Positions 55,323-64,000 of a stretch of DNA of 64,000 nt are shown here, piece by piece. This DNA is from Halolamina sp. CBA1230. GTDB taxonomy: Archaea > Halobacteriota > Halobacteria > Halobacteriales > Haloferacaceae. Every line of letters starts with the position of its first letter. Within the stretch, counting starts at the first letter, position 1. The DNA lies in NCBI RefSeq assembly GCF_002025255.2, contig NZ_CP054588.1, positions 1 through 64,000 of the forward strand, in the 5' to 3' direction. The notes beneath the pieces were generated by a model that saw only the letters and a program-made list of their open reading frames with translations, was not told the DNA's origin and searched no databases. Position numbers and translations under genes: made by a program.

Positions 55323-55682
55323 ATGCAGGATTCTCCTGCCCAAGCGGAACCCCATACTCTTCGTGGGGCTACGGATCGTCCGGCGCTGCTGACGATTCGT
55401 GATGTCGTTGAGGAGATGGAACCCCTTGCGACAGCCGAACTCGACGACTATCTCCATCCATCCGTCCTTGAAGTCACGCTTGCCGATGGGCTATGTGCGG
55501 CCGACGAGGCCCGGATTGACATCCAGTGGACGACCCAAGATGATTACAAGTTCCATTACACGGATAGGAACGCGGTGAATCTTCGCTGGGGAAAGCACCC
55601 ACACGCAGGAGACTACACTGGATCGACTTGTTCACTGCCGTCGGGAGATCACAGACCGCGCCGTAGTGCTGGTACGCGGTAA
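55323..55682 (+). pseudogene. Truncated partner gene of the HTH protein
   Basis: The frame gives 119 residues, and the first 95 look genuine: LLTIRDVVEEMEPLATAELD, IDIQWTTQDDYKFHYTD and RNAVNLRWGKHPHAGDY. The remaining residues ([18 protein letters not shown]) are read from unrelated sequence. The native gene probably continued past about 55610, where it is joined to a fragment of another gene on the opposite strand. Similar small proteins follow this type of HTH gene in other haloarchaea. The function is unknown. Confidence 0.6.
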
Positions 55683-55827
55683 ATCCGCGTGCGACGTGGA
55701 TTCGATCGAGCAATCGTTGACTGGGCGCGATCTGAGCGAGTGTCGTCGTCGTCGCGTGTCCGTTTGCGTCGACCCAGAAGGCGGGCCCGTCGTGCAGGAG
55801 GAGATGGTCGAGCACGAGCGACTGCAG
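55630..55827 (-). pseudogene. Internal fragment of a haloarchaeal RecA-fold-like protein
   Basis: On the minus strand the frame reads [40 protein letters not shown] and [20 protein letters not shown], followed by [10 protein letters not shown]. This is coherent coding sequence resembling the strand-order and Asp-ANG-loop of small RecA/P-loop proteins common in haloarchaea. It lacks its start and end, being bounded by the truncated HTH partner gene on one side and an accC fragment on the other. Family naming is tentative. Confidence 0.5.
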
Positions 55828-56222
55828 GATCGGGACGCCGCGGCCTCCTGCATGACGGTGCGGGCTTTCGTCTTCTCTCCCAGAGTCTCCATCGCATCGC
55901 TGGGCGGGCCGACCCACGTGATACCGTCGGCGGCGTTGACCCGCGCAGCGAACTCAGCGTTTTCCGCGAGGAAGCCGTAGCCGGGGTGGATTGCGTCGGC
56001 TTCGGCCCGCTGGGCGACGTCGACAATCTCTGCCTGATCGAGGTACGACTCGCTCGCGGGTGCCGGGCCGACGTTGTACGCCTCGTCGGCGTAGTCAACG
56101 TGACCGGCCGACCGGTCGGCGTCGCTGTAGACGGCGACCGTCTCGATACCTAACTCTTCGCATGCCGCCATCACGCGGACCGCGATTTCGCCGCGATTGG
56201 CGACAAGAACTTTCTCGAACAT
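55828..56222 (-). pseudogene. accC: 5' fragment of biotin carboxylase (acyl-CoA carboxylase alpha subunit)
   Basis: The first 124 codons encode a typical biotin-carboxylase N-terminus: [56 protein letters not shown] and [20 protein letters not shown]. After VMQEA a 2-base insertion shifts the frame in GVPI, and homology stops at about 55828. Roughly 80 percent of the gene is missing. Its ATG overlaps the stop of the acyl-CoA dehydrogenase gene, so it was once in that operon. It cannot make an active carboxylase. Confidence 0.8.
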
Positions 56223-57384
56223 TAGTAGGACTTGGGGAAGCCGAGTTGCTGACTGATGTGGTTGTACGCCATCTGCTGGGAGACCGGGGCCAGACGCGTG
56301 AGGTTAATCTCGCGCCACCACCGCTCAACGTCGTACTCCTTGGCGTACCCCCAGCCACCGAAAGCCTGCATCGACTGCCCGCCTCGATGCCGGCGCTGAC
56401 GGCTGTGGCCTTCGCCACGTTGGTCCCGTAGCCACACTCCTCGCCCTGGTCGTAGAGCCAGGACGCCTTTTCACGCATCAGCGCCGCCGTCTCCATGCGC
56501 GCGTAGGCCTGCGTGATCGGGAACGATACGGCCTGGTGGCTGCCGATCGGTGCGTCGAACACCTCCCGGTCGTTGGCGTACTCGATGGCGGTGTCCGCGG
56601 CCAGTTTGCCGATGCCAGTTCCTGCGGCCGAGAAGCCGATTCGTTCCGGGTTCAGCATGTCAACCAGTGCCCACCACCCCTCGTCTGCCTCGCCCAGTAG
56701 GTTCTCCTCGGGGACGCGGACGTCCTCGATGAAGACCTCACAGGACTTCGAGTAGTTGATGCCGTGTTTGTCGATGGGCGCGACGTCGATCCCGGGGTCG
56801 TCTATGTCGACGATGAACAAGCTGATCCCGTCGGTGCCGCGGTCCACGTCCTCACGTGGCGTCGTGCGCGTGACGAGGATCATGTTGTCGGCCCGGTCCG
56901 AGAACGTGGTCCACGCTTTCTGTCCGTTGAGAACGTACTCGTCGCCATCCTTCTCGGCGCGGGTCGCGACGTTCAGTGTGTTCGTCCCGGCCTCAGGTTC
57001 AGTGATGCCGATCGAGAAGTTGCGCTCGCCGTTGGCGATGTCGGGCAGGTAGGTCTCCTTCTGTTCCTCGGTGCCGTTCTCGCGAATGCCGACGGCAGCC
57101 ATCCCCGCGGTCAGCACCAAGTACCAGGTGCCGGCCATGCCACAGCCCTCGGCACAGAGGGTCTCCATGGCCAGTCCCATCTCCTGCATTCCCATGCCGG
57201 CCCCCTCGTACTCCTCGGGGACCAGCAGGCCGTGGAAGCCGGCCTCCGCCAGTTCGTCCCAGAACCCCTGGGCGAACTCCCCGGCCTCCTCTTTCTCGCG
57301 CCAGTACTCCGGTCCGTACTCGGCCGCCACGTCCGCCGCGGTCGACCGAATCATCGAACGTTCTACCGTGGAATCGAAGTTCAT
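56222..57384 (-). pseudogene. Acyl-CoA dehydrogenase with a frameshift near its 3' end
   Basis: Residues 1-330 are a normal acyl-CoA dehydrogenase: IGITEPEAGTNTLNVATRAE, GQKAWTTFSDRADNMILVTR, NPERIGFSAAGTGIGKLAAD. At about 56380 (after SAGIEAG) the frame is lost; shifting it restores QSMQAFGGWGYAKEYDVERW and the normal C-terminus to a stop at 56222. The missing two bases (or one extra) separate the flavin-binding and C-terminal helices, so the gene is broken unless this is a sequencing error. It is upstream of the accC fragment and downstream of an acyl-CoA synthetase gene. Confidence 0.8.
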
Positions 57385-60639: not shown

Positions 60640-60800
60640 AACCCACCCCTAAAGGGTGGGCTTGTCGGTGGACTCCCGATCTGGCCGACCCTACTGGTCG
60701 GCAGGCGAATACTCGCCGTTCACGTTCAACGTCCCCGACTTCAGGGCGAGGTGACGTGTCGCCCCTCCGTGCGGAGACTTTTGCCCCGCACGGAGCATCT
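60640..60800 (-). ncRNA. Predicted omega-RNA (sotRNA) of the second tnpB
   Basis: By analogy with characterised haloarchaeal sotRNAs, a transcript from the 3' part of tnpB through the hairpin at 60642-60660 would form the TnpB guide scaffold. The guide would be read from the flank just below 60640. The 5' limit is an estimate. Confidence 0.5.
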
Positions 60801-61905
60801 TCATCCCGATGTTCTTCGCCGCGTTGTAGTCCGGGTTGACCTCGTACCCGCACTTCTGGCAGCAGAACTTCGCTTGCGACGGACGATTCTCACGGAGTGT
60901 CGTTCCACACCGTGAACATCGTTGGGACGTGTACGCCGGATCGACCTGCGTGGTTTCGATACCCTCCACTTCCGCCTTGTACGCCACGTAGTCGTACAGT
61001 TGCCGGAACGCCCACGCATGGAACTTCTTCGCATTCGGCATCCGATCTCGGATGTCCGTCAACTCCTCGAACGCGATTATATCGCACCCGTGTGCAACGG
61101 CTTCCTGAACGATGGCTTTCGAGATTCGATGCAGGTAGTCCTCAACCCATCGCGTCTCTCGGTCGCCCATCTGCTTGATCGTTCGATGGGCCGACTCCGT
61201 TCCCGTCTGTTGCAGGTCGCCGCGCACGCGTTCGTACTCCTGGCGACGGTGATTGAGGTAGCCCCCGCTCCAGAACTGTCCGGTTGACGTGACGGCAATC
61301 TGTTCGATACCGAGGTCAACGCCGAGGACTGTACTGTTCCCGGCGTCGCCGTCGTTCGGTATCTCGGACTCCACCTCAGCCTTTGTGCCGATGTGGAGGT
61401 AGAAGGTGTCCGTCTCGTCACGGTACTGAAGCGTCGCACCCGTCACCTCGTAGTCATCGTTTCGGAGGTACTCAGTCTGCGGATTGTCGCCCTCCGGTGG
61501 GAGGACGTACCCGGCTTCGACACGCCCGTCAACCGTGGAAAGGGAGACGCGGTCATCGTGGAACGTCGCACTCCGTTTGTCGTAGCGAACCGAGGGTGTC
61601 GTGAAGTTCGGCTGCGACGCCATCTTTCCGTTCTGCCAGCGAGCGACGACGCCTTTGATAGCTTCGGCGGCCTTGTTGCGTGCGGATTGCACGAGGTTCG
61701 CTTGAAGCCGTGTTTGTTCACGCACGTCGGAGTACGTCCGGTCGTGCAGTTCGGTTTTCGATGTGGGCTTGTAGTCGTCTTTCCACGCGTCTTGGACGAC
61801 GTAGTTGCACGCCCACAGATACTCCTCAATGGTTTCGTGGAGGAGAGTCGCGTCGCTGTCGCCGATGTCGAGTTTGACGACGGCCGTGCGACGCACCTCC
61901 ACCAT
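60691..61905 (-). CDS. tnpB: TnpB RNA-guided nuclease, canonical catalytic residues
   Basis: The 404-residue protein has RuvC-I GVDLGIEQIAVT (Asp 197), RuvC-II CDIIAFEELTDIRDR (Glu 280), a CxxC zinc ribbon (C330, C333 in QRCSRCG and C348-C352 in KFCCQKCG) and RuvC-III VNPDYNAAKNIG (Asp 359). All three catalytic acids are present, unlike the other TnpB in this window. The frame is intact. A TATA-like region ATAGTGGTAGATTTATAACG lies just upstream of the start (61915-61935). Confidence 0.92.
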   Translation of the reverse strand: MVEVRRTAVVKLDIGDSDATLLHETIEEYLWACNYVVQDAWKDDYKPTSKTELHDRTYSDVREQTRLQANLVQSARNKAAEAIKGVVARWQNGKMASQPNFTTPSVRYDKRSATFHDDRVSLSTVDGRVEAGYVLPPEGDNPQTEYLRNDDYEVTGATLQYRDETDTFYLHIGTKAEVESEIPNDGDAGNSTVLGVDLGIEQIAVTSTGQFWSGGYLNHRRQEYERVRGDLQQTGTESAHRTIKQMGDRETRWVEDYLHRISKAIVQEAVAHGCDIIAFEELTDIRDRMPNAKKFHAWAFRQLYDYVAYKAEVEGIETTQVDPAYTSQRCSRCGTTLRENRPSQAKFCCQKCGYEVNPDYNAAKNIGMKMLRAGQKSPHGGATRHLALKSGTLNVNGEYSPADQ

Positions 61906-62192
61906 ACATCATCTGTATAGTGGTAGATTTATAACGTTCATGTTGACGTTGGGGAGTCAGACAGTCGTCGTCCGGTGGTTTGATTCCCAGTATGTCGGCT
62001 TCCTCCCATGGATAAAGCCATGGGTTTCCGCCTCGAAATTCGTATGAACCCCCCGATTTGAGCGGTCAGCTAAAGAGTCGAGTTGTGGGTTTTCACGACT
62101 CCAGCCGTTTTATTGGTGAATTTCGAGGGAGGGGCACACGTATTCTTCATCCGTGGAATGCATTTATTCGAGTCAAGCTACTGTACTGTCTC

Positions 62193-64000
62193 ATGGATGA
62201 ATTGACGGCAACCATCTCGTTCGACGAATTCGTCGACATGCCGGAGTTCTATGGATCCGGTGCAGCGGGATATCGCCTCGCGATGGTGAAAGACCGGGCG
62301 GACTTTCTCGACTTGTTCGAGGGCGCTCGGCATGTGGATGCAGTGACGTACGCTGAGACCCCGGAGCTGATGGTGCAGATGCTGACAGAGTACGATATCG
62401 GCTCGTTGGACGTGCTCATCGGGAATGCCGAGGATTATGCCGACCAGGTCAACGAGGTTTCGACGGCGAAGTCACTCGTCCAGCTGCGTGAAGCCGACCG
62501 GCTCACGATCCGGTTGAAAAATCAGAAAACGGTCCACTCGAAGATCTATCGGATCGTTATGCCGGACGATACGGTCAAACTCGTCCATGGCTCGGCAAAC
62601 CTTTCGCGGAACTCCTGGGAGTACCATACGAACCAGATCTCGGTCTTGACGACTGATGTCGGGACGGAATTGGATACGGAGTTCGAACGGTTCATCGACC
62701 AGTACCGCGATGGCTACAGCGACCAAACGCTTCTTGAGGGGCTAGTCGAAGCCCTGGAAGAAGCCGACTCCGCAGGAACGAGAAAATCGAATCGAATACT
62801 GGGTCGGCGCTGGCGATCTGGATGTGAGTGATCGGCCGCACTCAATCAGGACGCCGTCGAGGATCTGAAAGACGTCGCTGATGAAGTGCGGGCCGTCGTC
62901 GAAGACCCGGAAGAGGCCGACGGGACAGTGGCGTTCGTCGAGGAGCCAGAAAACGCTGATCGAGCAGTCATCGAATCGACCGACGACATGATCGACGACG
63001 ATGATGCACCGGCCGCCGAGGAGTCGGGCGAAAATGAGGAGTCACCGGACGTGGGCCTTGTCGAATCTGACCACGAGACTGAACTCACAGACACGTTGGA
63101 CCGCCCCCGTGTGCGGGCGCCCGACGAAAAGATCCGGATGGGTACGAGCAAAGTAGACAAGGATACAGCCGACGAGTTCGGTACAACCCTTCGCGATCGC
63201 GGTGCGACTGTCGAGGACCACAGCATCACGGCGCCACTCGATGCGTACACAAAGCAGGTCAAGGAATCCACGTCGATTCCGACGATGTCGGTCCTGCCGG
63301 AGGCTGAACAGGTGGTGATCGGCGAGGACGACGAGATGATTCTCGTTGCCACCGACGAACCGACGCCCGACGTCCTCGATCACTGTCTCGGAACGATTGA
63401 AGACTACATTGAGACCGTCGAGAATCACGGGCATACACAGTCCGAGACGGCCGTGATGGCGCAGATGTATGAGGCGTTCCTGTACGGCTTCTGGGCGCCG
63501 TTTGCCGACCAGTACGCCGAAGCTCTCTCGTCGCCATCACGGACGCTTGACAACGTCCTGCAGCACCTCTATATCGAGGATCTTGTTTTTGTCGTTATCC
63601 CAGAGCGTATTGTGGAGTATTGTTCTGACCCAGATACGGATACGAACGAAATCAGGACTGAAGACGGGAATTTCCGAAGCCGAATCAAGATCGTTGGGAT
63701 GCAGGAGAAACCCACGCAACTGATGACACCGAGGGCACTTCGGGGTGGAAACGACGTTCAGGAGCGCTCAGAAATGGCGTGGAATATCGCTGTCGGAATG
63801 CTGTACAAGGCGCGTGAAGGCAGACCTTGGAAATTAGCGGATCTCCGGAGTAGAACGTGCTATGCGGGCATCTCGTTTTATCAAGAACGCTCTGATGACC
63901 CGGACACTCGGGCTGCAATTGCCCAAGTCTTCATTGACGACGGAAGGAACTTCGTGATCGAAGGAGGTGCTGTGGAAGATGTCGCTACTGAAGAGCGCCA
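62193..64000 (+). CDS. PLD-family nuclease frame running into a MID-PIWI Argonaute region (3' end outside window)
   Basis: From ATG 62193 the first part has one PLD-type HKD motif, TVHSKIYRI ... KLVHGSANLSRNSWEYHTNQ (about residues 112-150). A stop at 62829 follows, but the true frame appears shifted only between about 62785 and 62831; after that the same frame is open to the window end. The continuation has an acidic linker, a domain I cannot name, then YIEDLVFVVIPERIVEYCSD (about 63568-63627) and RIKIVGMQEKPTQLM, EMAWNIAVGMLYKAREGRPW, CYAGISFYQERS and AQVFIDDGRNFVIEGG. These match the MID end and PIWI domain of prokaryotic Argonautes. The first catalytic Asp position is Ser (AGIS), so PIWI is inactive. 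The GC content falls at about 63570, hinting at a junction. Confidence 0.7.

Follow-up and report, generated by a model that had tools for sequence, protein, structure and literature searches.

A probable recombination scar joins truncated PLD nuclease and short Argonaute genes on a plasmid-sized replicon of Halolamina sp. CBA1230

The APAP systems of haloarchaea combine a long-A, catalytically active prokaryotic Argonaute (pAgo) with a separate gene for a PLD protein, AgaP (PMC11442185). NbaAgo acts as a heterodimer with DREN-APAZ; residues N181, F182, R183 and K187 are part of its guide pocket, and the MID-MID and MID-PIWI contacts of its filament use residues 97-142 (PMC12205087). The locus described here lies at the end of a 64,000-nt window, the whole stretch of DNA that was analysed, which covers positions 1-64000 of a 254,488-bp contig of Halolamina sp. 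CBA1230, that is, of a 254-kb, plasmid-sized replicon. The original prediction read one open frame from a PLD nuclease domain into an inactive PIWI domain, with PLD as the built-in effector of the Argonaute. Like the distantly related AgaP, the PLD part of the window is haloarchaeal and contains the HxK...GSxN signature, and this resemblance to AgaP and APAP made the fusion reading attractive. In APAP, however, the pAgo is long and active and the PLD protein has its own gene, whereas the window holds a fragment of a short, inactive pAgo that belongs to another system. This fragment shares GIS, NFRxxxK and residues 154-477 with the SPARDA-like short pAgo plus REase-APAZ systems (PADLOC pAgo_I / Aga_REase_Archaea), but it lacks the N-terminal 153 aa, the REase-APAZ partner and the C2/PIN genes found with them. 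The window fusion is neither an APAP member nor a working short-pAgo system.

The forward-strand stretch 62193-63578 corresponds to the N-terminal PLD domain and the middle region of a haloarchaeal PLD protein of ~757 aa. Compared with that protein, the window copy has two indels and a premature stop, and the C-terminal ~300 aa are missing past 63578. The truncated ORF 1 (62193-62831, forward strand) runs from ATG 62193 to TGA 62829-62831 and encodes 212 aa, of which ~193 are genuine PLD sequence and the remainder an out-of-frame tail. Its VHSKIYRI...GSANLSRNSW motif (62532-62624) includes the active-site elements HxK (HSK, 62535-62543) and GSxN (GSAN, 62589-62600), and the PLD domain first recognised from this motif is confirmed by matches to RE_NgoFVII (E=1.9e-05) and to PLDc_2 (E=9e-06, which falls slightly short of the curated cut-off). 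The 5' flank (62162-62192, forward strand), aligned with four relatives, carries an A/T-rich ATTTATTC box which is conserved in them and is a candidate archaeal TATA-like promoter element.

DNA alignments with relatives place two indels at 62769-62833 (forward strand), a loss of 2 nt after 62769 and of 1 nt after 62832, which occur in none of the aligned PLD relatives. The two deletions cancel and leave a shifted stretch of ~60 nt containing TGA 62829-62831; only because they cancel do ORF 1 and ORF 2 share a reading frame. That stop codon splits ORF 1 from ORF 2, so the uninterrupted frame from PLD to PIWI does not exist. The indels sit outside homopolymers and are therefore probably not typical base-calling errors. 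A programmed frameshift was considered for this gene and rejected, since the deletion in Salinibaculum litoreum lies at a different base and the frame is open in the other full-length relatives. The ~757-aa gene of S. litoreum (L094:7299-9578) carries an independent 1-nt deletion, ~30 nt upstream of the window's indels.

ORF 2 extends from GTG 62886, its earliest possible start, to 64553, beyond the end of the window, and encodes 555 aa. Its first 231 codons (62886-63578, forward strand) are the middle region of the same PLD protein. The original prediction had called for an extension past 64000, and the frame does close there, at contig position 64553. The last 324 aa (63579-64553) correspond to residues 154-477 of a short MID-PIWI pAgo, so that the forward-strand sequence from 63579 to 64000, continuing to the stop, encodes the C-terminal half of MID followed by PIWI. 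It ends in ...HYYYYM, the normal ending of this pAgo family. All the PIWI-type segments, LVFVVIPERIVEYC, AWNIAVGMLYKAREGR, CYAGISFYQE and AQVFIDDGRNFVIEGG, are present downstream of PLD. ORF 2 matched PADLOC pAgo_I with E=1.5e-98, the alignment starting only at model position 139, and PDB 9om4 with E=2.2e-38, over residues 148-470 of chain 9om4_B, which has 471 aa. These matches bear out the predicted inactive MID-PIWI identity, as does GIS in place of the catalytic GID, by which the first catalytic Asp is replaced. Such a replacement is usual in short pAgos. The prediction had left the type as long-B or short; the best matches are short pAgos, and by its sequence the window's PIWI is of the catalytically dead short-pAgo type and not long-B. 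At 63669-63689 an NFRxxxK guide-pocket motif matches N181, F182, R183 and K187 of NbaAgo by sequence comparison.

A functional short pAgo has MID and PIWI domains with an inactive tetrad; here PIWI and half of MID are kept, and the N-terminal 153 aa are missing. In alignments with solved short pAgos the lost residues correspond to the N-terminal part, and the region of the NbaAgo filament contacts falls within the lost part. These domain limits were drawn from sequence matches to solved short pAgos and not from predicted structures, which were poor (mean pLDDT 42 for the PLD protein from a 26-sequence alignment, and 30 for the intact Halosimplex pAgo from a single sequence). A functional short pAgo also has an APAZ partner, in its operon or fused to it, and none of the REase-APAZ type was found genome-wide. 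A concatenated query of REase-APAZ, C2, PIN, the pAgo N-terminus and the PLD C-terminus gave no match in the Halolamina genome and strong matches in three control genomes. The missing REase-APAZ leaves the pAgo fragment without a partner, at least of this type.

In relatives, each part is a gene of its own. At least 27 haloarchaea with a readable full ORF encode the PLD protein as a single ORF of ~757 aa running through the breakpoint; Halapricum desulfuricans WP_229123117.1 is an example. The window's PLD part shows 82-89% protein identity to its closest relatives, and a sequence search of the PDB gave no match to the family. The family occurs as a single gene whose neighbours vary; in the class sample it adjoined a PIWI gene in none of 39 places, the nearest lying ~9.5 kb away. 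A long pAgo gene is found ~10 kb from the ~757-aa PLD gene in two genomes (L060, G120:C1:42001-62000; and G172:C1:442714-452193). Among the intervening genes in G120 there appear to be Mre11- and Rad50-like ORFs, named by sequence appearance only.

Each pAgo relative is encoded by one ORF of ~472-480 aa, whose start codon precedes the breakpoint position by 153 codons. The closest is a 477-aa ORF on the Halosimplex aquaticum chromosome with 99% protein identity; over its residues 154-477 the window differs at 3 of 324 amino acids. A 472-aa relative on plasmid CP050017 of Haloarcula sp. JP-L23 has 84% DNA identity. As a rule the pAgo gene stands directly downstream of REase-APAZ (PADLOC Aga_REase_Archaea, E=1e-112 to 1e-168). 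In both H. aquaticum and strain JP-L23 the locus has four genes: the REase-APAZ effector, the pAgo and a divergent pair including a PIN-like nuclease. Short fragments of the same pAgo gene were seen elsewhere (G102:C3:29797-29994, G333:C1:1950109-1950375, G356:C10:73843-74037 and G165:C2:434825-434902), and these fragments in other haloarchaeal genomes suggest repeated loss of the gene.

The junction lies at 63578-63580 (forward strand), with PLD-type sequence up to 63578/63579 and short-pAgo sequence from 63579. It falls inside the predicted interval 63500-63650. Homology to PLD relatives covers 62163 to 63577/63579 of the window, after which these genes go on in their own ~757-aa ORF, and homology to short-pAgo relatives begins at 63579 and ends just beyond the stop; the switch in homology was at 63577-63579 in every comparison. 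At most 1 nt (G63579) is common to both sides, and both frames are kept. No repeat of at least 16 nt able to drive homologous recombination was found within 62000-64000, and GC content does not change abruptly at 63579. No match spanning the junction was found in 391 Halobacteria genomes, in a plasmid collection, or by a peptide-pattern scan of a contig collection of 84,980 species that includes 32 relatives, and a 33-nt string across the junction had no exact counterpart in viral contigs. Thus the same domain order, which the original prediction proposed to look for in haloarchaeal relatives, was absent from both the 391 class genomes and the 32 relatives. Of the two outcomes named in advance as fatal to the fusion reading, separate genes with a junction unique to one strain is what we observed; the other, a lack of PIWI in 63600-64000, did not occur, as PIWI was found there.

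We therefore favour the other possibility raised in the original prediction, the joining of two unrelated genes by recombination; the parts are separate genes in every relative examined. The PLD/pAgo join is, with a probability of about 0.88, a recombination scar that left two broken genes, a double pseudogene. An illegitimate (non-homologous) rearrangement or deletion on the 254-kb replicon, which is rich in gene turnover, would have joined the middle of the PLD gene to the middle of the pAgo gene. The C-terminal ~300 aa of PLD, the first ~153 aa of pAgo, the REase-APAZ gene and the two-gene PIN module would have been lost or never brought in. Two small deletions, before or after the join, would explain the stop codon that ends the PLD part. 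The PLD fragment without its C-terminal region should not work, nor should the pAgo fragment without half of MID and its APAZ partner. Truncated neighbours, the biotin carboxylase and acyl-CoA dehydrogenase remnants described below, also count in favour of a scar. Against it, both frames are kept at the join, for which the chance is 1 in 3, ORF 2 is open for 555 codons, PIWI is undecayed and the promoter-like box is kept. With ORF 2 open and PIWI undecayed, a residual product could be made.

The PLD part retains the constraint of its relatives. Its N-terminal part has a dN/dS of 0.044 vs. 0.043 among intact relatives, and its middle part 0.067 vs. 0.067. Changes at positions invariant among 27 relatives number 0 of 118 in the N-terminal part, and 4 of 129 invariant positions are changed in the middle. 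Since the split from Halosimplex, the pAgo part has acquired 28 synonymous and 3 non-synonymous changes in the window lineage vs. 18 and 0 in the Halosimplex lineage. The relative-like dN/dS values and the few pAgo changes suggest that both genes were probably functional until recently and that the break is recent. This pattern of recent constraint dates the break and is not evidence that the present product works.

The main rival to a scar is mis-assembly, in which 63579 would be a false link between two unrelated loci and the PLD indels would be errors of base calling. The junction would fit this, having at most 1 nt of homology, no repeat and no counterpart in any other record searched. However, the 3.47-Mb host genome is assembled into 4 contigs, is 99.92% complete and has low contamination, and the indels are outside homopolymers. 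A mis-join of intact loci should moreover have left the PLD C-terminus and the pAgo N-terminus elsewhere in the assembly, where neither is present. We regard such an artefact as improbable. It is less probable again that the 555-aa ORF is a new functional chimera, such as a regulator or decoy that binds guides but has no nuclease domain. The 555-codon frame, the intact PIWI and NFRxxxK guide-pocket motif and the strong recent constraint on the PIWI part speak for a chimera, but intact ancestors account for the constraint, half of MID and the REase-APAZ partner are lost, and the junction exists in one genome only. In particular, we think it very doubtful that the ORF is a stable newborn chimera whose half-MID/PIWI still binds guides as a decoy or regulator.

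The reading that we find hardest to credit is a true PLD-pAgo fusion effector, a one-protein version of APAP uniting the AgaP PLD with pAgo. APAP systems are established in haloarchaea (PMC11442185), and AgaP-type PLD proteins, distant relatives at ~33% identity, adjoin a long pAgo in 18 of 19 places checked. The window's PLD, in contrast, comes from the ~757-aa family, which is 30-35% identical to AgaP-like proteins, and this close family never adjoins a pAgo in the class sample. An APAP pAgo is long with an intact DEDX tetrad; the window has GIS for GID and matches short pAgos, and the own partner of its pAgo type is a REase-APAZ protein. The PLD domain is cut off from the PIWI part by TGA 62829-62831. 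With this stop, both genes truncated and REase-APAZ missing, the proposal of PLD as a built-in effector is not supported, and the PLD-Argonaute fusion should not be recorded as a new immune architecture; a tempting false lead is thereby closed. The scar also documents the loss of a haloarchaeal defence locus on a plasmid-sized replicon, with its partners gone and two genes fused.

A TnpB/OrfB gene of the IS200/IS605 family (60691-61905, reverse strand) lies ~290 bp upstream of the PLD ORF; we mention it as context. The replicon neighbourhood also contains an integrase gene. At 55635-57384 of the window (reverse strand) are a biotin carboxylase remnant, consisting of the N-terminal domain only followed by an out-of-frame tail, and an acyl-CoA dehydrogenase remnant with its C-terminal domain broken off, adjoined by an apparently intact AMP-binding enzyme gene. 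This is another decaying stretch on the same replicon as the PLD/pAgo scar. A candidate defence gene is still present in the region: an intact PDC-S11 gene (DUF4268; contig position 67011-67973, PADLOC E=1.9e-98) lies ~2.5 kb downstream of the scar.

At intact pAgo loci, conserved genes for C2 and a PIN-like nuclease almost always stand divergently, immediately upstream of REase-APAZ (for example L087:4387-6013, L077:6392-8018 and L063:10280-11907, among others); the module is not in the window's genome. C2 has ~287 aa and no Pfam family. Our literature searches found no report of short pAgo with PIN or toxin-antitoxin genes, or of a C2/PIN link. The pair is possibly an undescribed component of REase-APAZ short pAgo systems, or a toxin-antitoxin-like pair linked with them, and we rate this module as more interesting than the PLD-pAgo join. 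C2 was located within 6 kb in 32 of 38 pAgo places among the 391 Halobacteria genomes; the other six places include the window, a full-length pAgo, three short fragments of pAgo and a locus whose C2 is 89 kb off on the same contig. The PIN-like nuclease has ~257 aa with invariant D7, E44, D196, D202 and D219.
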